43,162 nucleotides of DNA from Sedimenticola sp. (GTDB taxonomy: Bacteria; Pseudomonadota; Gammaproteobacteria; Chromatiales; Chromatiaceae), in the NCBI GenBank assembly GCA_026989135.1, contig JALSJZ010000151.1, forward strand, positions 1 through 43,162, read 5' to 3'. A program made the translations under genes and the position numbers. Shown here in pieces: positions 1 through 30,162 of the stretch. The first letter of the stretch is position 1, and every line of letters begins with the position of its first letter. Under the pieces are notes generated by a model. It had not been told where the DNA came from, ran no database searches, and saw only the letters and a program-made list of their open reading frames with translations.

Positions 1-94
1 TGGTAGTGAACAGTTTGTGGCTTCACTGGAAAAGTTGGCAAAAAGAACACTTCGGTTTCGCCCGCAAGGCAGACCTGTTAATGATAAAGGGTAG
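1..94 (+). pseudogene. C-terminal end of a REP-associated Y1 (IS200-like) transposase, cut by the window edge
   Basis: The frame starting at base 2 reads GSEQFVASLEKLAKRTLRFR then PQGRPVNDKG and stops at TAG 92-94. The GxExFVxxLE...LRxRxxGRP pattern is the usual tail of REP-associated tyrosine transposases (Y1/HUH nucleases that mobilise short palindromes). The catalytic part would lie left of the window, so it cannot be told whether the gene is whole. The stop codon lies inside the first REP-like palindrome, and an almost identical tail recurs at 185-277. Recognition rests only on this short tail. Confidence 0.5.
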
Positions 95-107
95 CGTCCC
101 CTTTAGT
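1..107 (+). repeat. 107-bp direct repeat, copy A (copy B at 184-290)
   Basis: Bases 1-107 recur without a visible difference at 184-290, an offset of 183 bp. The repeat carries the transposase tail and one REP-like palindrome. It looks like a recent tandem duplication of the 3' end of a REP transposase unit, or an assembly artefact in a repeat-rich spot. Confidence 0.9.
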
Positions 108-317
108 TCCATAAAGGGTAGCGTCCCCTTTAGTTCCCTGCTAGAAAACTGCTACAAAGGAATGTAGAGAAAGGCCTGCCCTGTGGTAGTGAACAGTTTG
201 TGGCTTCACTGGAAAAGTTGGCAAAAAGAACACTTCGGTTTCGCCCGCAAGGCAGACCTGTTAATGATAAAGGGTAGCGTCCCCTTTAGTATGATAAAGG
301 GTAGCGTCCCCTTTAGT
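84..317 (+). repeat. Four copies of a 24-nt REP-like palindrome
   Basis: A 24-nt unit with core AAAGGGTAGCGTCCCCTTT occurs at 84-107, 111-134, 267-290 and 294-317. AAAGGG and CCCTTT arms can form a hairpin. Palindromes of this kind next to a REP-associated transposase tail are expected for a REP/BIME array. A fifth, partial piece (CCCCTTTAGT, about 318-328) reaches the point where menF is truncated. Confidence 0.75.
134..277 (+). pseudogene. Second, longer fragment of the REP-associated transposase C-terminus
   Basis: The frame is open from just after TAG 131-133 to TAG 275-277. It reads FPARKLLQRNVEKGLPC followed by the same GSEQFVASLE tail as at the window start. There is no start codon with a ribosome site and no HUH catalytic motif, so this is a 3' fragment produced by the duplication. 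It shows what preceded the tail in the parent gene. Confidence 0.5.
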
Positions 318-323
318 TCCCCT

Positions 324-1268
324 TTAGTCCCAGGTCGGGTGTAAAAGCCGCAGCATTGCATTGCCGAGAGCGGGCTGGTGGACGGCCTGCATATCGACAT
401 GGTATTCCGTTTTGAGATGGATGACCGATCCGGCACGAACCGAGCGTGGCCCGCTCTCCCAAAACTTGTGCAGGCGCAGAGATTTGAATTGCGCCACAAT
501 AAAACGGCTGACCATGGCCTGCTCTTCGATCTCCTTCTGGTTCCAGACGGCCTCCGATAGTGGCGCATCCATGGGGTAGGCTCGGGTGCCTGCCAGTGAG
601 ATCGTACGGAATTGTCCCTCCCGATCTATCCCTGCCAGCAACTCGGGGCTGGCACCCATCCAGCTGCCCAGGCCGGGCAGGGCAATAAGGCTGACAAGAG
701 CATCCGGCTGCTGGTTATCCAAATGCTGCAACAGACCCAACAGATCTGACTTTCCGGCCAGTGGCACCTGGAGCGTGCGGGCAATGATGACCTTCTCCAG
801 CTCATTGTGGGCAATCCGTTTCAGCGCTTCATTTACCACATTGAGGAAATGGGCCTTGTCAGTGCCGGGTTTTACGTCTGGTTGTTTTCCCGGATATGTT
901 TTCAGATTGGTTTGGGGTTGATTTGTGCATCTCCCCAGCGCATCCCAAAAGGCTGCCGGCGCTTCGTTGGCAGATATAATATTTGAGCCATCCTGCTGAA
1001 AGGTGATATGAAACTGTGGTCGTAACAATAGGGTCTGTCTGCTGCCTGGATCGATGAAGGGACTCACCACAAAGCCCGCTGTGCCATCCTGAATATCAAG
1101 CGGCTCCGCCTCGCAAGGGGTGGAAAAATCGATCAACAGATGGAAGTTACTGGAGTGGGGCAGACGCCAGATAGCGATGGCAGCTTCCAGCTCAATGGCC
1201 GCTGCCCAGAGTGTCCGTATTGACAGGTGGGCACTGCGTCCATCAGCAAAAAATGCGCCTGGCTTCAC
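324..1268 (-). pseudogene. menF: menF, isochorismate synthase, truncated at the C-terminus
   Basis: MenF converts chorismate to isochorismate, the first step of menaquinone synthesis. The 314-residue frame carries family landmarks: LEKVIIART (~res 158), GSWMGASPELL, SLAGTR, NQKEIEEQAMV and HLKTEY. It ends in LLHPTWD. In whole family members LHPT is followed by about 90 more residues holding catalytic-site arginine and a Mg2+-binding glutamate; these are absent. The stop falls where the sequence enters the REP array at ~325, so the 3' part was lost by rearrangement, unless assembly is wrong. The start is GTG, overlapping the menI stop as GTGA. As it stands it should not make an active enzyme. 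Confidence 0.8.
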
Positions 1269-1694: not shown

Positions 1695-2546
1695 CTACCT
1701 GCTTAGAACCATTAAATAGGCCGCACCAAAGAGGAGGAAAAAGCGCCCCGTCAGCGGCGTTAGCCGACTTCGATCACTTGCCTCCAGAAGGCGTTTAATA
1801 GGCACCAGCAGCGGCAAGGGCAGCAGCAGCCACAACAGCTGAACCTGGCTGGAGTCAGAGAGCAATACAGCCAGCAGGTAGGCCGTTGCGATCAACAACC
1901 AGTAGAGCTGCACGCTGTTTCGATAGCCGATGCGTACCGTGAGCGTCCGCGTTCCAAGCTGGGTATCTTCATCAAGGTCGCGCAGTTCATTGCTCAACAG
2001 CAGCAGTGAAATCAGCAGGCTGACCGGCAGGGAGAGCAGCAGAGCAGAGCTGGAAAATTGGCCGCTCATGGCCAGATATGCGCCCTGCACCATGACCACC
2101 CCCATAACCAGAAACACCTGCACCACCCCCAGCCCACGATGCTTGAAATTCAGCGGCCCCATGTTGTAACTGAGCGCGGCGAGGGTGGAGAGGAAGACGA
2201 TCACAAACAGCGGCCAGCCACGCAGTGAAACCAGATAAAGCGCAACCAATGCGGCCACTGTGAGGCAGAGTATACCGGCGTTTCTGTTGCGGCGGATCAT
2301 TGCTGCGGCGGCTGATTCAGAGGCATCTTTTGTTAGTGCAGGCAGATCTTCGATATCATTGATCAGGTTAATGCCGGCTTGCGCAAGAACCCCTCCCAGC
2401 ATTACCCACAGGGCAATCGAGGCAGTGGTAAATCCGTCATGCCACGCAAGCAGAATACCCAGCCCACAGGAGATCAGAGCCACGGAGAGAGAGAAGGGTC
2501 TGAGTGCTTTGATCCAATGATATTGCTTCAATGTATTATCAGGCAC
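1695..2546 (-). CDS. menA: UbiA-family prenyltransferase, probable 1,4-dihydroxy-2-naphthoate polyprenyltransferase
   Basis: A 283-residue integral membrane protein with about eight hydrophobic segments. The first aspartate motif is NLINDIEDLP (res 60-69) and the second is LRDLDEDTQLGTRTL (~res 188-202), both expected for Mg2+-dependent UbiA prenyltransferases; GTRTL is typical of the MenA branch. It would join the polyprenyl chain to dihydroxynaphthoate at the inner membrane. The start appears to be GTG at 2544-2546, 17 bp after the FAD-enzyme stop; a nearby ATG is out of frame and stops after four codons. The menI and menF neighbours favour MenA over UbiA. Confidence 0.8.
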   Translation of the reverse strand: MPDNTLKQYHWIKALRPFSLSVALISCGLGILLAWHDGFTTASIALWVMLGGVLAQAGINLINDIEDLPALTKDASESAAAAMIRRNRNAGILCLTVAALVALYLVSLRGWPLFVIVFLSTLAALSYNMGPLNFKHRGLGVVQVFLVMGVVMVQGAYLAMSGQFSSSALLLSLPVSLLISLLLLSNELRDLDEDTQLGTRTLTVRIGYRNSVQLYWLLIATAYLLAVLLSDSSQVQLLWLLLPLPLLVPIKRLLEASDRSRLTPLTGRFFLLFGAAYLMVLSR

Positions 2547-3737: not shown

Positions 3738-4514
3738 CTATTTTTTGTGACAGATGGTGCAGAAAGAGTTCATCTTCGTATTGTCGTAGTAGAGAAGGTT
3801 GGGTGTGTCGCCCGCATGTGGGTTGTGACACCCTGCGCAGGTAAACTCCCGCCCCGGCCTAAGGGGATCAGGTACCCCTCCGGTGGGGTGCCCCGCGCTG
3901 GAGAAACCACGGATCAGATGTGCCCCGCTGGCTTTATCTTCGTGGCAGGATATGCAGTGGCTCGTCGTTTTGATATGGGCCCTGAAGGGCTGATCCGTTG
4001 CATGGGGATCGTGGCATATCGTACAGCTGATCAGAGAGGGGCCATGCCGGTATTTCTTGGCTGCCCAGATCTGCATTCGCTCTTCATGACACTGTATGCA
4101 TAGTTTGCTGTCAGGTTTTATGACCGCATATTTTCCTTGCTCTGAATCTTCATCATGACAGCTAAGGCAGGCCCATACTGCGGCAGGCCCATGCACAAAC
4201 CTGAAGTTGATTATCTGTCTGTGGCATGTTTTACAGGTTGAATCCTTGGAGTTTTGCGGTGTGCCGCCCATATTGTGGCAGGGCATGCAGGCGGCCTCTT
4301 TGGCCGGGGTATGAAAGATATTTTTTTTGTGCGCGGATGGTGCTTTTTTATGTTGGCTTGAATCACTGCTCGGGCTTGTGACCGATATGAAAGGCGTTGT
4401 ATTTGCATTAACAGCCGAAACCAGCAGTAGTGCTGCTGTTGCACTCTGCAAGCGGAGCCCCTTATTGACAGCCTTAACCAAGGGGTTCCACAGTTGATAG
4501 ATAGGCTGCTTCAT
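3738..4514 (-). CDS. Octahaem c-type cytochrome, doubled-CXXCH family
   Basis: A 258-residue exported protein with eight CXXCH haem-binding motifs: CMPCH, CKTCH, CLSCH, CIQCH, CTICH, CISCH, CAGCH and CTICH. Several are followed by HDPHA/NPHA, the mark of the doubled-CXXCH domain. A hydrophobic stretch at res ~22-37 could be a signal peptide or anchor after an unusually long N-terminus. It should lie in the periplasm as an electron conduit; no substrate-binding domain is recognisable. The start ATG overlaps the stop of the thioredoxin-fold/TPR gene by 4 bp. The partner is probably the 15-haem cytochrome upstream in the same block. Confidence 0.85.
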   Translation of the reverse strand: MKQPIYQLWNPLVKAVNKGLRLQSATAALLLVSAVNANTTPFISVTSPSSDSSQHKKAPSAHKKNIFHTPAKEAACMPCHNMGGTPQNSKDSTCKTCHRQIINFRFVHGPAAVWACLSCHDEDSEQGKYAVIKPDSKLCIQCHEERMQIWAAKKYRHGPSLISCTICHDPHATDQPFRAHIKTTSHCISCHEDKASGAHLIRGFSSAGHPTGGVPDPLRPGREFTCAGCHNPHAGDTPNLLYYDNTKMNSFCTICHKK

Positions 4515-5608
4515 AGTTTAAGCATCCGTTCGAGTGCTTTTCTGTAGCTTTCTGCTGCTGCGGCATAATTTTTATGCGCCTCAAACAGTTTGGCCTGATA
4601 GATGTAGATATTGGAATCAGCCTGGTTTATCTCTTTTGCTTTCTCAAACATCTTTCGTGATTGTTTAATATCTGACTGTTTGCCATAGCTGTATCCAAGA
4701 TAGTAATAACAGGGGGTATAGGCTGCGTCACTTTTCATTCCCCTGGCAATCAGGCCCTCTCCTTTGGCATGCTCTCCAGTGTCGATCAACAGCATGCCCA
4801 GTTCACAAAGGGCAACGGCATTTTCAGGTGCTATTGAGAGGGCCTCTCTAAAATGGCTCTTTGCCTTGTCAATCTGCGCACTCTTTAGATAGAGCCTGCC
4901 AAGTGCCAGGTGTGGAGCAGCAAACTTTGGGTCGGCTGCTGCTGATTTCAGAAACCATCTCTCTGCTAAAGCCGTCCTGGATCTTGATCTTAAAAGCACA
5001 TTGTTTCCCGTATTGAACAGCATCATTGCTCGTTTGTTGGGTTGGTGGCCGGACTTCTGCCTGAGATTCAGGGGTGGCTTTCTGCCCTCCAGTGTTGCTG
5101 TGACAAAGTCTGCCATCTCTTCCGCACCAGCAATGGGGAAGCCGGAAAGCTCATACCTGATGTTTCTCCTTTTATCCAGAATAACGATTGTGGGAACCGC
5201 AATGACGCCATAATCACTGAATGCATTCAGCCCGTAATCTATGATATTCGGGAAGCCGAGCTTTAGTCTGTCCGCCATGGATGTTACGACCGCCCGCAGA
5301 TCCTCGCTTCCACCCTCCGCATTGATACCGACAACAGAGAGTCCCCGGCCATCGTATTTCTCAAACAGCACTTGCGCTCTTTTCAGAGCTATTTCAGATT
5401 TTGCGCTCCATGAGGCCCAGAAGATCAATAGTGTGAGCTTCTCACCCAGCAGATCATCCAGAGCCTGTTCATCGCCGCCAACGCCCTTTAGCGTAAAATC
5501 AGGAGCGGCAGATCCAACCTGTAGATGCTTAAGCGTGGCAGCAGATGGTGGTGGCAGAAACAGCAGGCCGGATAGCAAAAAAACAGTTAGGAGATATGGC
5601 TTATTCAT
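4511..5608 (-). CDS. Thioredoxin-fold (TlpA-like) protein fused to TPR repeats, CxxC lost
   Basis: 365 residues: a signal peptide (~1-24), a TlpA/AhpC-type thioredoxin domain (~30-170) and four or so TPR units (~215-362). The redox motif expected as W-C-x-x-C reads W67-S68-A69-K70-S71, so both cysteines are serine. The fold is otherwise kept, including the cis-proline in VIAVPTIVIL. It therefore cannot act as a disulfide reductase and may serve as a binding scaffold, perhaps in maturation of the cytochromes on either side (inference). It overlaps the 8-haem cytochrome by 4 bp. A 304-bp repeat-filled gap separates it from the TPR gene upstream. Confidence 0.75.
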   Translation of the reverse strand: MNKPYLLTVFLLSGLLFLPPPSAATLKHLQVGSAAPDFTLKGVGGDEQALDDLLGEKLTLLIFWASWSAKSEIALKRAQVLFEKYDGRGLSVVGINAEGGSEDLRAVVTSMADRLKLGFPNIIDYGLNAFSDYGVIAVPTIVILDKRRNIRYELSGFPIAGAEEMADFVTATLEGRKPPLNLRQKSGHQPNKRAMMLFNTGNNVLLRSRSRTALAERWFLKSAAADPKFAAPHLALGRLYLKSAQIDKAKSHFREALSIAPENAVALCELGMLLIDTGEHAKGEGLIARGMKSDAAYTPCYYYLGYSYGKQSDIKQSRKMFEKAKEINQADSNIYIYQAKLFEAHKNYAAAAESYRKALERMLKL

Positions 5609-5632
5609 GCTGCGCGCATCAACATTGCCTTA

Positions 5633-5794
5633 GAGGTACTTGCAAAACTCCTGAGACAGCCCCTGGCGGCGTTAAAAACCGGCTCAAAATGCTCATTTGC
5701 TGCATGTAAACTCCGCTTTTTCGCAAATTTTTGCCTCGCCTAAAGCGCCTACTTTTGGTGCCAGGAGCAGTCTCAGGAGTTTTGCAAGCACCTC
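5633..5794. repeat. 162-bp inverted-repeat element (MITE-like)
   Basis: The ends 5633-5657 and 5770-5794 are 25-nt inverted repeats with one mismatch (core TTGCAAAACTCCTGAGAC). The 112-bp interior has no meaningful ORF. It lies in the gap between the TPR and thioredoxin-fold genes. A short palindrome at 32661-32680 is made of the same terminal sequence joined head to head, which suggests a mobile or formerly mobile repeat family. Confidence 0.7.
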
Positions 5795-5802
5795 CTTATT
5801 AA

Positions 5803-5905
5803 CATGCTTTTTCAGGATTAGCAGGAGTGCCCTGTCTGGTTTTCTGGTGATTTCCGTAACCTTCATGTTAATCCTGAAAAATCCTGTTAATCATGTCTAT
5901 TCTTT
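5803..5905. repeat. Dispersed palindromic repeat, family TTTTTCAGGAT, copy 1
   Basis: It starts with AACATGCTTTTTCAGGATTA and ends with ATGTTAATCCTGAAAAATCC, the reverse complement with small changes. Related copies occur at 8786-8885 and 9574-9718, all in gaps of the nqr/cytochrome block. Copy 1 is more degenerate than the others. Confidence 0.6.
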
Positions 5906-5912
5906 ACGGTTG

Positions 5913-6185
5913 TCACCGTCGGCTCCGTTTGAACTTTTTTATGCCTGCTTTATATTCGGCAATGGCCTGCATGGGGTTGCCGAGTTTTTCGTAGATACGC
6001 CCTAGCTCATAGTGTGCTCTTGCAGGGTTTGGGTTTGACTTCAGAGCCTCTTTCAATGCCTTTTCAGCACCTTTGAGGTCGCCGTTTTTGGCCAGGGAAA
6101 TCCCCTTTTCCACATCCTGGGCATGCAAGGGTATAACTGTAAATATCAACAGTAATACTATTGCTTTAACCCTTTTTATGATCAT
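5913..6185 (-). CDS. Small exported TPR protein
   Basis: A 90-residue protein: signal peptide (~1-22, ending HAQ) then about two tetratricopeptide units with the consensus ARAHYELGRIYEKLGNPMQA. TPR proteins bind other proteins; here the probable partner is the 15-haem cytochrome, whose stop overlaps this start by 4 bp (ATGA). The very basic C-terminus is KKFKRSRR. Function beyond a periplasmic scaffold or assembly role cannot be read. Confidence 0.7.
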   Translation of the reverse strand: MIIKRVKAIVLLLIFTVIPLHAQDVEKGISLAKNGDLKGAEKALKEALKSNPNPARAHYELGRIYEKLGNPMQAIAEYKAGIKKFKRSRR

Positions 6186-7510
6186 CGGTTTGGCGCAGCT
6201 TTTGTCCGGTCATAACTAAAGGATTGATGGCAGCCAGGGCTGCACTTGCCGCCATTTGGGGTCAATGTAATATTGATGGGCAGACTCCAGGAGCCATAAG
6301 GCACCGCATCACGAATATGGCCGGGGTTGTTGCTGGCATGGGCGTCATGACAGGCGCGGCAGGTGCGACCCTTGCTTCTGTTGACGTGCAGGAAATGCAG
6401 GTTCTGGTCGCCATTTCTAAATCTCGTCAAGGTCGTTGTGCTGGCGGTTTCAGCAATGGTGTTCTGATGACACATAAAGCAGAGTTTGTAGTTGTCTGGA
6501 TTGTAGGGGGCATAAAAACGGCGGGGGAAATACTCCTTGAGCATCCTGAAGTTGGTAGAGCCATGCGGGTCATGGCATGCGGAGCAGTCGTTATCCCGGA
6601 TTGGGCCGTGGTGATTTGAGTTGGCGGCGAGAACCGCTTTTATGTCGGCAATCTTGCCGGTGCTGGTTTTATATTCCCGATCATGGCAGCGTATGCACAG
6701 AGCCAGCGGCTGGGCAGTGAGCTGCATGCTGTAGTCTGATGTGTGCGGGTCGTGGCAGCCGAGGCACCCTTTTTCTGCTGCCAGCCCTTTGTGTTTTACA
6801 GTTGCAGTGGCGATCTGCTCCTGCATATCCTCATGGCAGGAGAAGCAGAGTGCCTGACGCCCATCTTTGGCAAGCCCATATCTATAGTCACTGCTGTGCG
6901 GGTCATGGCACTTCACACACCCCTCTGCTGCCGGGTCATGGGTATATGGTTTCTGCGCAAGTTCTGCCTGTTGATCCGTATGGCATGAAAAGCAGACCTC
7001 ATTGCCTTCTGACATGAGCAGAAAGGGGGCATCCGAGGCGTGTGGATCATGGCAGATACCGCACTCCCCCAAGGAGGCGGGGCCGTGTGGAAATTTTCGC
7101 TGGAAGGGAGCTGCGTCATGGCAACTGAAACAGAGTCTGGAGCCCTCTTTTACAAGCAGAAATTTGAAAGGTGATTGATGGGGATCATGACAGTCGGTAC
7201 ATTTACCTTTTTTCACCGGAGAGTGGAGAGACTTTCCCGCATAGGGTTCATCATGACACTGATAACAGATGCTGCCGATATCTTTAATCGGTTTGAATTT
7301 ATGTTTTCCTGTATGTTCATGGCAGAACTTGCATCTGCCTGCTGCAACCGGGTCATGAATATAGCTGGCCTTGCCCATCTTGTTGTGGCAATTGGCCGTT
7401 ACACAGGAATCACCTTTTTTTGTAGCCGCAAACAGGCTGTTGGCATCAGGATAGAGAGAGAGCAGGAAGATTACCAATAGAGCCAACGGGTAAACTGTTT
7501 TTTTATTCAT
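6182..7510 (-). CDS. Large multihaem c-type cytochrome (13 CXXCH plus CX4CH and CX3CH)
   Basis: About 442 residues from the ATG at 7510, chosen because MNKKTVYPLALL begins a good signal peptide (~1-28); an upstream TTG would add seven residues. There are 13 standard CXXCH motifs plus CVTANCH (CX4CH) near the N-terminus and CSPGCH (CX3CH) near the C-terminus, so 13-15 haems. Many motifs are followed by HDPHxSD, giving the doubled-CXXCH pattern. It is predicted to be a periplasmic electron-transfer protein with no recognisable catalytic domain. It follows nqrF by 27 bp, where nqrM/apbE often lie, so it is probably expressed with the Nqr operon. It could connect the quinone pool to another redox partner (inference). 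Confidence 0.85.
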   Translation of the reverse strand: MNKKTVYPLALLVIFLLSLYPDANSLFAATKKGDSCVTANCHNKMGKASYIHDPVAAGRCKFCHEHTGKHKFKPIKDIGSICYQCHDEPYAGKSLHSPVKKGKCTDCHDPHQSPFKFLLVKEGSRLCFSCHDAAPFQRKFPHGPASLGECGICHDPHASDAPFLLMSEGNEVCFSCHTDQQAELAQKPYTHDPAAEGCVKCHDPHSSDYRYGLAKDGRQALCFSCHEDMQEQIATATVKHKGLAAEKGCLGCHDPHTSDYSMQLTAQPLALCIRCHDREYKTSTGKIADIKAVLAANSNHHGPIRDNDCSACHDPHGSTNFRMLKEYFPRRFYAPYNPDNYKLCFMCHQNTIAETASTTTLTRFRNGDQNLHFLHVNRSKGRTCRACHDAHASNNPGHIRDAVPYGSWSLPINITLTPNGGKCSPGCHQSFSYDRTKAAPNR

Positions 7511-7537
7511 GATCCGGTTAAGCCCGCCCAAGAATCA

Positions 7538-25495: not shown

Positions 25496-28400
25496 TTATT
25501 CCGAAGGTTTGTGAAACCGCTCTTGCAGCTGCAATACCATGCCGTAGATGACCGGCAGTACCAGCAGGCAGAGTACGGTTACTGTGATCATGCCACCGAC
25601 CATTGGAGCCGCGATACGCTGCATCACCTCGGAGCCGGTGCCGGAGCTCCACATGATCGGCAACAGGCCGGCGGTGATGGCGGTGGCGGTCATCGCAATG
25701 GGTCGCACCCGCTCAGAGGTGCCGGTGTGTACCGCGTCCATAATCTCACTGCCGGTCAGTTTTCCTCCCTTTTTGCGGTGACGACGGGCAATCTCCTGAT
25801 CAATAAAGGTGAGCACCAATACTCCAATCTCTGCGGCCACCCCGGCCAGGGCGATAAAACCAACCGCCACGGCTACTGACATGTTGAAGCCAAGGTAGTG
25901 GATCAGCCAGAAGCCGCCAATCAGCCCAAACGGGATGGAGAGCATCACCACCAGCGGTGCGGTGATGTTCTTGAAGTTGAAGTAGAGCAGCAGGAAGATT
26001 AGCAGCAGGGTGGCAGGCACGACGATGCGCAGCCGTTCTGCGGCGCGTTCCATATATTCGAACTGCCCTGACCAGACCAGCGTGTAGCCGGGCGGGATAT
26101 CCACCTGGCTCTCTACCACCTGCTTGGCTTTGGCCACATAGCCGCCGATGTCGGAGGTTTTGATATCAACATAAATCCAGGCGTTGGGGCGCGAGTTTTC
26201 GCTCTTGATACTGGGTGGGCCGCGCCGCAGTTGCAGGTCGGCTACCAGTGAGAGCGGGATCTGTGCGCCGGTGGGGGTCGGTATCAGTACCCGCTTCAGG
26301 TTCTCTATGTTGTCACGCAGGTCTCTTGGGTAGCGCAGGCTGACGGGGTAGCGCTCCAGCCCCTCTACCGTGTAGGTGATATTCATGCCGCCAATGGCGA
26401 TCTGGATCACATCCTGTACATCACCAGTGGTGAGTCCGTAGCGGGAGGCCTCTTCACGGTTGATGTCAAAGTCGAGGTAGTAACCTCCTGCAGCTTTGTC
26501 GGCAAAGGCGGAGAGGGTGTCTGGCATCGGCGTCAGCACCTGTTCAATATCACCTGCCACCTTCTCCAGCACATTCAGATCTGGCCCACTCACCTTGATG
26601 CCAATCGGTGTCTTGATGCCGGTGGAGAGCATGTCGATGCGGGTCTTGATCGGCATAGTCCAGGCATTGGCCAGCCCTGGGAACTTGATCGCGGCATCCA
26701 TCTCATCCATCAGCATTTTGGTGGTTTTGGTCGGGTCTGGCCACTCAGAGCGATCCTTCAATCGGATGGTGGTCTCCAGCATCGCCAGCGGTGCCGGGTC
26801 GGTTGCCGTATCCGCGCGTCCCACCTTGCCGAAGACATGATGCACCTCTGGGAAGCTCATCAGGATCTTGTCGGTCTGCTGCATCAGCTCCTTGGCCTTG
26901 GTGATGGAGATGCCGGGGTAGGTGGTCGGCATGTAGAGGATATCCCCCTCATCCAGTGGCGGCATAAACTCACTGCCCAGTTTTTGCAGTGGGTAGCTGG
27001 TGACGGCCAGCAGCGCAATGGCGATAGTCAATGTTATCCAGCGAAATTGAATCGCCTGCTTCAACACCGGCGCATGCAGCCAGTGCAGGAATCGGTTCAC
27101 CGGGTTTTTGGCCTCGGGCATGATCTTGCCGCGAATGAAGAAGCCCATCAGTACCGGCACCAGGGTGACCGCCAGTATGGCCGAGGCGGCCATGGCGTAG
27201 GTTTTGGTGAAGGCGAGCGGGGCAAACAGTCGCCCCTCCTGTGCCTGCAAGGTAAATACCGGCAGGAAGGAGACGGTGATGATCAGCAGTGAGAAGAAGA
27301 GTGCCGGCCCCACCTCACGTGAGGCATCGGCAATCGCCTCCCAGCGCTCTGCGCTCGTCAGTTCACCCCCTTTTCGGTCACCCGCATGTTCGAGATGTTT
27401 GTGGGCATTCTCGATCATCACAATGGCGCCATCCACCATCGCGCCAATGGCGATGGCAATGCCGCCCAGGGACATGATGTTGGCGTTGATGCCCTGCCAT
27501 TTCATCACAATAAAGGCCATCAGGATGCCGATCGGCAGGGTCAGAATCGCGACCAGTGCAGAGCGGGTATGCAGCAGGAAGAGGATGCAGATGAGGCTGA
27601 CTACAATCGACTCTTCGATCAGCTTCTCGACCAGGTTCTCTACCGCACGTTCGATCAGGTCGCCCCGGTCATAGACCGGCACGATCTCCACCCCTTCGGG
27701 CAGCCCTTTTTGCAGTTCAGCCAGCTTTTCACGCACCCGTTCGATGGTTGCCATGGCGTTTTCACCATAGCGCATGATCACCACGCCACCGGCCACCTCG
27801 CCTTCACCATTCAGCTCGGCAGCACCCCGGCGCAGTTCAGGGCCGATCTGGATGTGGGCAATATCCTTCAGGCGGATCGGGGTGCCGTTGTCATCCACGC
27901 CGACCGGGATCACCTCCAGGTCGCTGATGGATTGGATGTAGCCGAGTCCGCGTACCATATATTCGGTCTCGGCCATCTCCACCAGCTTGCCGCCGACATC
28001 GTTGTTGGAGCGTTGAATCGCCCGTTTTACCTTGGATAGCGGGATGTTGTAGGCGAGCAGTGCATTGGGGTCAACCTCTACCTGATACTGTTTGACGTGA
28101 CCGCCGATGGAGGCGACCTCGGAGATCCCCTCGACCGTCTGTAGTGGATAGCGCAGATACCAGTCCTGCATCGAGCGCAGTTGGGACAGGTCATGTTTGC
28201 CGGTGCGGTCTACCAGCGCATATTCGTAGATCCAGCCAACGCCAGTGGCATCCGGCCCCAGTGAGGGGGAGAGTCCGGAGGGGAGACGGGAGCTGACGTA
28301 GTTCAGGTACTCCAATACCCGTGAACGTGCCCAGTACATGTCGGTGCCATCTTCGAAGATGATGTAGACAAAGGAGAAGCCGAAGAAACTGTAGCCGCGT

Positions 28401-28645
28401 ACCACCTTGCTTTTGGGTACCGCCAGCATCGCTGTGGTGAGCGGATAGGTGACCTGATCCTCTACCACCTGGGGTGACTGACCGGGGTATTCGGTGAAGA
28501 CGATGACCTGTACATCGGAGAGATCCGGGATGGCATCCAGCGGGGTGTTTTTTACCGCCCACACGCCTGCTGCCAGGATGATGAAGGTGGCGATGAGAAC
28601 CTGGAACTTCTCTCGCAGGGAGGTATTTATGATGGCCTGGATCAT
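25496..28645 (-). CDS. cusA: Cu(I)/Ag(I) efflux RND transporter, inner-membrane pump
   Basis: A 1049-residue heavy-metal RND pump (CusA/CzcA family, usual ~1045), 12 helices with two large periplasmic loops. Landmarks: TPLDAIPDLSDVQVIVFTEY near the start, GAMVDGAIVMIENAHK in helix 4 and the C-terminal GVAAEIGVLVLTFIDQEI. Proton-driven export of copper or silver through CusC is expected. The start overlaps the cusB stop by 4 bp. Surrounding copper genes favour Cu over Zn/Co. A repeat and broken-gene region follows its stop. Confidence 0.93.
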   Translation of the reverse strand: MIQAIINTSLREKFQVLIATFIILAAGVWAVKNTPLDAIPDLSDVQVIVFTEYPGQSPQVVEDQVTYPLTTAMLAVPKSKVVRGYSFFGFSFVYIIFEDGTDMYWARSRVLEYLNYVSSRLPSGLSPSLGPDATGVGWIYEYALVDRTGKHDLSQLRSMQDWYLRYPLQTVEGISEVASIGGHVKQYQVEVDPNALLAYNIPLSKVKRAIQRSNNDVGGKLVEMAETEYMVRGLGYIQSISDLEVIPVGVDDNGTPIRLKDIAHIQIGPELRRGAAELNGEGEVAGGVVIMRYGENAMATIERVREKLAELQKGLPEGVEIVPVYDRGDLIERAVENLVEKLIEESIVVSLICILFLLHTRSALVAILTLPIGILMAFIVMKWQGINANIMSLGGIAIAIGAMVDGAIVMIENAHKHLEHAGDRKGGELTSAERWEAIADASREVGPALFFSLLIITVSFLPVFTLQAQEGRLFAPLAFTKTYAMAASAILAVTLVPVLMGFFIRGKIMPEAKNPVNRFLHWLHAPVLKQAIQFRWITLTIAIALLAVTSYPLQKLGSEFMPPLDEGDILYMPTTYPGISITKAKELMQQTDKILMSFPEVHHVFGKVGRADTATDPAPLAMLETTIRLKDRSEWPDPTKTTKMLMDEMDAAIKFPGLANAWTMPIKTRIDMLSTGIKTPIGIKVSGPDLNVLEKVAGDIEQVLTPMPDTLSAFADKAAGGYYLDFDINREEASRYGLTTGDVQDVIQIAIGGMNITYTVEGLERYPVSLRYPRDLRDNIENLKRVLIPTPTGAQIPLSLVADLQLRRGPPSIKSENSRPNAWIYVDIKTSDIGGYVAKAKQVVESQVDIPPGYTLVWSGQFEYMERAAERLRIVVPATLLLIFLLLYFNFKNITAPLVVMLSIPFGLIGGFWLIHYLGFNMSVAVAVGFIALAGVAAEIGVLVLTFIDQEIARRHRKKGGKLTGSEIMDAVHTGTSERVRPIAMTATAITAGLLPIMWSSGTGSEVMQRIAAPMVGGMITVTVLCLLVLPVIYGMVLQLQERFHKPSE

Positions 28646-30162
28646 GGGTTGCCCTCCTCGTCCATATCATCCATCTCCATATCGTTCATGTCCATGTCAT
28701 CCATCATCGCTCCCGGCTTCCTGCCTCCCGCGACACTTGTACGTCCCTGTACATCGTCCGCAGGTGCCGCCTCTGCCGCCATCACAGCCATCATCTTGGC
28801 CGTGGCCTCGCGCAGCTTGGATTCGGAGTCGATCAGGAACTGACTGGAGGTGACCACCTCTTCACCCGCTTCCAACCCCTCAAGGATCTGGGTAAAGCCG
28901 CCCGCACTTACCCCCAGTGTTACCTGGCGCGGTTCAAACTTGCCCGGCTCCCGCACCACGAAAAGCTGCTCATGGCTGCCAGAGCGGACAATCGCTTCAG
29001 AGGGGACAACCACGGCATTGGGCTGAGCATCGGTATGCAGTACCACGTTGGCAAACATGCCGGGTTTCAGCAGCAGGTCAGGGTTGTCAAACTCCAGCCG
29101 TACCCGTACGGTGCGGCTCTTCTGCTGCATGGTGGGGTGTATAAAGGTGATTTTGCCATGAAAGGTACGTCCCGGTACGGCACGTACCGTCATCTCGGCA
29201 CGATCATCTACCTTCATCCAGGGGAGGTCATCTTCGTAGATGTCGACGTTGACCCAGATGCGGCTCAGATCAGCAATCAGATAGAGCTCATCCTTGGGTG
29301 TGATGTATTGCCCCTCGCGTGCCCCAATGTGCATGATGCGGCCAGTAAAGGGGGAGTGGATATGCAACTGCTTTTTTATCTTGCGGCTCTGCTCCAGCTC
29401 TTTGATCTGATGGGCAGGGACATCAAACAGCTCCAGTCGCTCGCGCGAGCTGCGCAACAGGCTTTTGGTCGATTTTTTCATGCGCCCGGCTGAGCTGTTG
29501 CGTACCGACTCCCAGTTCTCCAGTGCTATCAGATACTCCCGCTGAGCCGCTACCAGGTCAGGTGAGTAGAGTGCCAGCAGGATGGTGCCTTTGTTAACTT
29601 TTATGCCGGTCTCATCTACTCGTAGCTGCTCGATCCAGCCTGCTGTTTTGGGGTGCAGGCGGGCCAGTCGCTCCTCATTGAAATCAACCTGACCCAGGGC
29701 ATTCAGCTGGCGAGCCAGGCTGCGCCGTTCGGCTCTGGCGGTGCGCACGCCGATGTTCTGAACCGTGACCGGGTCGATCTTCACCGTGCCGGCTGGTTCA
29801 TCGCTGTCACCACCGTCATCGGCATAGACCGGGATATAGTCCATCCCCATATTGTCTTGCTGAAAAACAGGTGAGGTGATGGCTGGATTCATCGGATTAC
29901 GCCAGAACAGCACCTCACGCTCCTTTGGCTTCTTCTCCTCTTCAGCGTAGACCGGAATATAATCCATCCCCATATTGTCCTGCTGAAAAACAGGTGAGGT
30001 GATAGCCGGGTTCATCGGGTTGCGCCAGAAGAGTACCTTGCGTTCACCCGGCTCACTCTCTGCAACCGTGGCAACGCTATCTCCGGGCAGCTGGGTGGCG
30101 TACCAATAGCCGCCACCTGCTCCTGCGGCCAGCATCACTACTGCGATAAAAAACTTACTCAT
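28642..30162 (-). CDS. cusB: Cu(I)/Ag(I) efflux membrane-fusion protein with duplicated N-terminal domain
   Basis: A 506-residue periplasmic adaptor anchored by an N-terminal helix (~3-22). Two near-identical metal-binding modules, 42-73 and 83-114, each read VLFWRNPMNPAITSPVFQQD then NMGMDYIPVY. They correspond to the heavy-metal-binding domain seen in CusB relatives, with the CPMHP cysteine replaced. Lipoyl, hairpin and beta-barrel domains follow (~130-450). The tail is Met/Asp-rich (MMDDMDMNDMEMDDMDEE). It is longer than E. coli CusB (407) because of these additions. Overlaps: 8 bp with cusC and 4 bp with cusA. Confidence 0.93.
   Translation of the reverse strand: MSKFFIAVVMLAAGAGGGYWYATQLPGDSVATVAESEPGERKVLFWRNPMNPAITSPVFQQDNMGMDYIPVYAEEEKKPKEREVLFWRNPMNPAITSPVFQQDNMGMDYIPVYADDGGDSDEPAGTVKIDPVTVQNIGVRTARAERRSLARQLNALGQVDFNEERLARLHPKTAGWIEQLRVDETGIKVNKGTILLALYSPDLVAAQREYLIALENWESVRNSSAGRMKKSTKSLLRSSRERLELFDVPAHQIKELEQSRKIKKQLHIHSPFTGRIMHIGAREGQYITPKDELYLIADLSRIWVNVDIYEDDLPWMKVDDRAEMTVRAVPGRTFHGKITFIHPTMQQKSRTVRVRLEFDNPDLLLKPGMFANVVLHTDAQPNAVVVPSEAIVRSGSHEQLFVVREPGKFEPRQVTLGVSAGGFTQILEGLEAGEEVVTSSQFLIDSESKLREATAKMMAVMAAEAAPADDVQGRTSVAGGRKPGAMMDDMDMNDMEMDDMDEEGNP

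Follow-up and report, generated by a model that had tools for sequence, protein, structure and literature searches.

The window (the whole stretch of DNA that was analyzed, 43,162 bases) is the entire contig C151 of a draft assembly of 2,607,848 bases in 189 contigs that is 98.93% complete, and it contains no N. Base 1 of the window is an end of this contig, and the features that concern us lie at or beside this tip:

2..94, + strand: rayt 3′ end, copy A; 30 codons and a stop, cut by the contig end, 80% identical to residues 194-223 of the intact RAYT of the congener G002
85..138, + strand: REP pair 3′ of copy A, with cores at 85-105 and 112-132
140..277, + strand: rayt 3′ end, copy B; 45 codons and a stop, matching residues 179-223 of the intact G002 RAYT at 82% identity
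268..331, + strand: REP array 3′ of copy B, with one core at 268-288, another at 295-315, and an incomplete unit after them
324..331, - strand: junction; most of the codons for W and D and the stop TAA, supplied by the REP tail
332..1268, - strand: menF 5′ part, an isochorismate synthase through LHPT, covering only profile positions 2-178 of the 257 of PF00425
1265..1687, - strand: hotdog-fold thioesterase, above the TIGR00369 cut-off; its best match is MenI, below the cut-off of that family
1695..2546, - strand: menA-like prenyltransferase; best match 1,4-dihydroxy-2-naphthoate polyprenyltransferase, below cut-off

The menF fragment and the repeats that adjoin it

An earlier note on this DNA proposed that menF is cut off at LHPT by a REP array, and our analysis of the junction confirmed this. 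The frame at 1268..324 (- strand) ends in MLRLLHPTWD and a stop; the final codon of LHPT ends at position 333, after which the frame reads W-D-TAA, with the TAA (324-326) belonging to the REP tail. Ungapped identity to the congener menF locus L018 (apparently that of G002, as the match coordinates agree) is 50 of 60 bases at 333-392 vs. 23 of 60 at 273-332, the first mismatch beyond LHPT falls at position 331, and in all 23 loci returned by our search the matched part of the query stops at residue 312, i.e., the T of LHPT. The note's estimate that some 90 residues are absent was also accurate, as the congeneric loci L018 and L017 carry 93 and 91 residues beyond LHPT that are absent from the menF of the window, which does not encode a full chorismate-binding domain with the C-terminal active-site residues. 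EntC residues R347, G361, E376, and K380 (counted on the alignment), which have roles in chorismate and Mg2+ binding, are aligned with the part that is lost; for this reason the truncated allele, if the junction is real, should yield no working MenF. Within residues 132-414, the intact congener protein aligns with solved structures of DhbC, EntC, and MenF, and isochorismate synthase is the best assignment for it, even though the whole congener proteins score 219.1 and 224.3 bits against TIGR00543 and so do not formally pass its cut-off of 224.75.

The array itself is REP-like, as first described, and it does not consist of REPs only, since it also encodes the C-terminus of a RAYT transposase, twice. 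Tandem copies of 138 nt are present at 1-138 and 184-321, 183 nt apart and 98% identical, differing at three adjacent bases; together the tip holds four exact 21-nt REP cores. Folded as single-stranded DNA, two of the cores (z -3.95 each) and two REP pairs (z -5.01 and -4.86) each form better hairpins than 200 of 200 shuffles. Copy B (140-277) translates as ARKLLQRNVEKGLPCGSEQFVASLEKLAKRTLRFRPQGRPVNDKG followed by a stop, copy A (2-94) encodes the last 30 residues of the same translation, and the stop codon TAG of rayt is part of the GTAG of the first REP.

Distribution of the rayt/REP unit

Window positions 139-335 were searched in 210 genomes of the order (E ≤0.001, with at most three candidates scored per genome), and under these settings matches were returned in three of them: this genome, G002, and G082. 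The G082 match consists of 30 bases of REP only. The best match, that in G002, is 85% identical over 188 bases and falls on the 3′ end of a complete rayt gene (L057:4492-5163; 223 aa), whose product contains a Y1_Tnp/IS200-like domain (PF01797, E 5.8e-18, residues 14-122); both rayt copies of the window cover only the region behind this domain, within residues 179-223. The best NCBIfam family of the G002 protein is NF047646 (REP-associated tyrosine transposase), at 75.8 bits against a cut-off of 80. REPs occur on both sides of the G002 gene, with the downstream ones exact and on the plus strand, and with the upstream one (C4:40944-40962) carrying one mismatch and lying on the minus strand; the upstream side of the rayt in the window falls off the contig.

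Allowing no more than one mismatch in 19 bases, we count six REP cores in G002 (five of them within one 1.2-kb stretch around rayt), four in this genome, and one in G082, with none found in G001, G003, G004, and G005. All four copies found in this genome sit at the tip, and a search of the rest of the assembly with up to three mismatches found no other. Given this clustering, here and in G002, no dispersal through the genome of the kind that defines REP elements was seen. A second copy of this rayt type was not found in the assembly either, the RAYT encoded on C68 being of another type (43% identical), and the same is true of the other end of an insertion, i.e., a rayt 5′ end, an upstream REP, and the menF 3′ end. 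The site of the element differs between the two assemblies, lying on C4 in G002 and beside menF here; at the place orthologous to that of the G002 rayt, C132 matches both flanks and not rayt itself. Since the tip is 85% and the men locus 86% identical to G002, the tip has diverged to the degree that one would expect if it belongs to this lineage.

The men locus and the gap beside it

The gene order at L018 is menA, the thioesterase, menF, menD, menB, and ubiE. The order of the menA-like gene is conserved at both L018 and L017, the thioesterase lies between menA and menF at both as well, and G001 has menF, menD, menB, and ubiE in the same order as L018; menF is uninterrupted in both G001 and G002. 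At E ≤1e-40, this MenF is present in only 3 of the 210 genomes of the order, all of one genus (3 of its 6 genomes; the loci are that of the window, L018, and G001:C68), and its nearest named relatives outside the genus, among the matches returned, are from Neomarinimicrobiota at 41-45% identity, which suggests that the men genes may have been acquired horizontally. Beside the men genes, L018:218-3691 contains a gene that by eye resembles a large heavy-metal efflux pump, and a stretch of the window 25 kb from menF (25512-29013) is 72% identical to it. Past the men genes, window positions 3738-7531 encode, also judged by eye, proteins with many CxxCH haem motifs as well as one that is thioredoxin-TPR-like. 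The genome carrying L018 is listed in the NCBI taxonomy as Candidatus Polarisedimenticolaceae, Acidobacteriota; the window's genome is placed in the same genus, yet its ribosomal protein S1 (C45) scores 863 bits against S1 chains of solved structure, presumably those of E. coli. The Acidobacteriota label may be wrong.

When L018:5700-10900 was compared with this genome (40 of 55 first-look candidates scored), only two matches were obtained, the menF end on C151 and the start of C130. C130 aligns from its base 1 to L018:9139, within ubiE, and has an open frame from its start to the ubiE stop; further along it, past ubiE, lies a menC-menE fusion, a single 650-aa open frame (L048:974-2926) in which MenC-like and MenE-like parts are joined. 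The approx. 3.2 kb of L018:5937-9139 are therefore without a counterpart in this genome and are bounded by two contig ends, and judging from the congeners this gap would hold the menF 3′ end, menD, menB, and the 5′ part of ubiE. Among the 40 of 55 candidates scored, neither menD nor menB of L018 has a DNA match in this genome, and a protein search of the genome found no menD; two weak matches in the latter search (24% identity over 103 and 99 residues) were rejected, the open frames that contain them (593 and 592 aa) probably encoding acetolactate-synthase-like enzymes.

The earlier note had also asked whether the genome holds another MenF/EntC or the missing menF 3′ end. Our PF00425 profile search returned five matches, namely TrpE (C70), a copy of the TrpE 3′ end (C5), PabB (C183 and C45), and the menF fragment itself; no second isochorismate synthase was found among them. 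The match on C5 (profile positions 208-257) looked like a candidate for the lost 3′ end and was rejected, because it duplicates the end of the C70 TrpE gene (98% over 202 bases) and is followed by genes that by eye look like trpG, trpD, and trpC. We also set aside a tblastn alignment that carried MenF on into and past the REP, taken as spurious with two TAA codons inside it, and a match on C100 (48% over 23 residues, E 0.3), taken as chance. The missing end was not found in the assembly. Contig ends elsewhere overlap imperfectly, C45 and C183 over 404 bases at 96.5% identity, and C70 and C5 over two stretches, one of 247 bases (97%) and one of 202 bases (98%); from such overlaps at 96-98% identity, the assembly seems to contain a mixture of strains.

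Origin of the junction and comparison with known systems

On balance, we favor the explanation that a rayt/REP unit adjoins the menF fragment in one or more strains of the sampled organism, by insertion or by rearrangement, and that the assembly broke at this place. Under this explanation, an IS200-like unit made up of a rayt gene and REP palindromes would either have entered menF or have become linked to it through rearrangement in the REP array, so that translation of menF would stop two codons into the REP tail; the assembler would then have failed to pass the duplicated rayt end and its REPs, the contig would end there, and the remainder (the rest of rayt, the menF 3′ end, menD, menB, and the 5′ part of ubiE) would be unrecovered. 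We infer that the junction is present in the DNA of the organism and was made by insertion. Several points count against this reading. The two 138-nt copies in the tip differ at only three bases, which could reflect an assembler loop; the far end of an insertion was not found in the assembly; and, with strain mixture visible at other contig ends, the junction could conceivably come from a minority allele or from faulty joining.

It is possible, and to us less probable, that menF is intact and that a chimeric read or a graph error attached rayt/REP sequence from elsewhere in the genome. The junction is only approx. 331 bases from the contig end, the tip contains the near-exact tandem copy just mentioned, menD and menB are lost in the same gap, strains appear to be mixed at other contig ends, and menF is whole in both congeners that carry it, all of which would suit such an artefact. 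The earlier note had likewise thought a mis-join plausible given the dense repeats; an assembly problem is indeed possible, with the array forming the very tip of the contig, but a join via shared repeats is not favored, because the tip (1-328) shares no word of more than 10 nt with the corresponding stretch of either congener (the congeners being used here as substitutes for the unseen sequence of this genome itself), and because the REP is found nowhere else in the assembly. With so short a shared word, a k-mer join is unlikely as the source of the junction; the assembly also offers no other copy of this REP or rayt type as a donor, the C68 RAYT being only 43% identical, and the join lies inside a REP array, which is where one would look for a junction of biological origin.

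The claim that menaquinone synthesis would be blocked is not supported, since the menF end is missing together with menD and menB, and one gap of approx. 3.2 kb would account for the absence of all three equally well. Real decay, in which the function of MenF and perhaps menD and menB were lost by insertion and deletion and this route to menaquinone was abandoned, would agree with the completeness of the assembly and with finding neither a second isochorismate synthase nor menD in it, but we consider it improbable: the missing genes coincide exactly with the interval that two contig ends delimit, an assembler should have been able to cross a clean deletion without leaving the contig, and open frames persist for the menA-like gene, the thioesterase, the menC-menE fusion, and what is left of ubiE at its 3′ end. 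A gene cut by a repeat at a contig end should not be taken for a broken pathway until one knows what the gap holds. A real junction, as in our favored explanation, would be a modest case of a metabolic gene interrupted by a RAYT/REP unit. The further proposal, that a low-copy RAYT/REP unit that is still mobile recently moved, rayt and REPs together, into the coding sequence of a menaquinone gene that was itself acquired horizontally, in a single strain of a natural population, is one that we regard as unlikely and offer only tentatively.

The rayt/REP element at the contig end is an ordinary element of an already known kind, and the interrupted gene also belongs to a known family, the MenF/EntC/DhbC isochorismate synthases (PF00425), which the intact congener protein resembles and from which the window copy differs in lacking the last 79 of 257 profile positions. 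According to Nunvar et al. 2010 (PMC2817692), RAYT/REP systems have an IS200-like Y1 transposase gene and REP palindromes that flank rayt in opposite orientation, as we observe in G002; they differ from our case in copy number, with only four cores here and six in G002, whereas that survey kept only RAYTs with abundant REPs, and in that the window has only the 3′ end of rayt, twice. In the 2013 study of GTAG REPs (PMC3733652), REPs are described inside or at the ends of ORFs, with the GTAG supplying the TAG stop of the neighboring ORF, just as GTAG provides the TAG stop of the rayt in the window; the window differs in that its GTAG is internal to the hairpin (GGGTAGCGTCCC) and not clearly terminal, and in that a rayt fragment accompanies its REPs. 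Low copy number apart, the case in the window fits these published descriptions of RAYT/REP systems and GTAG REPs.
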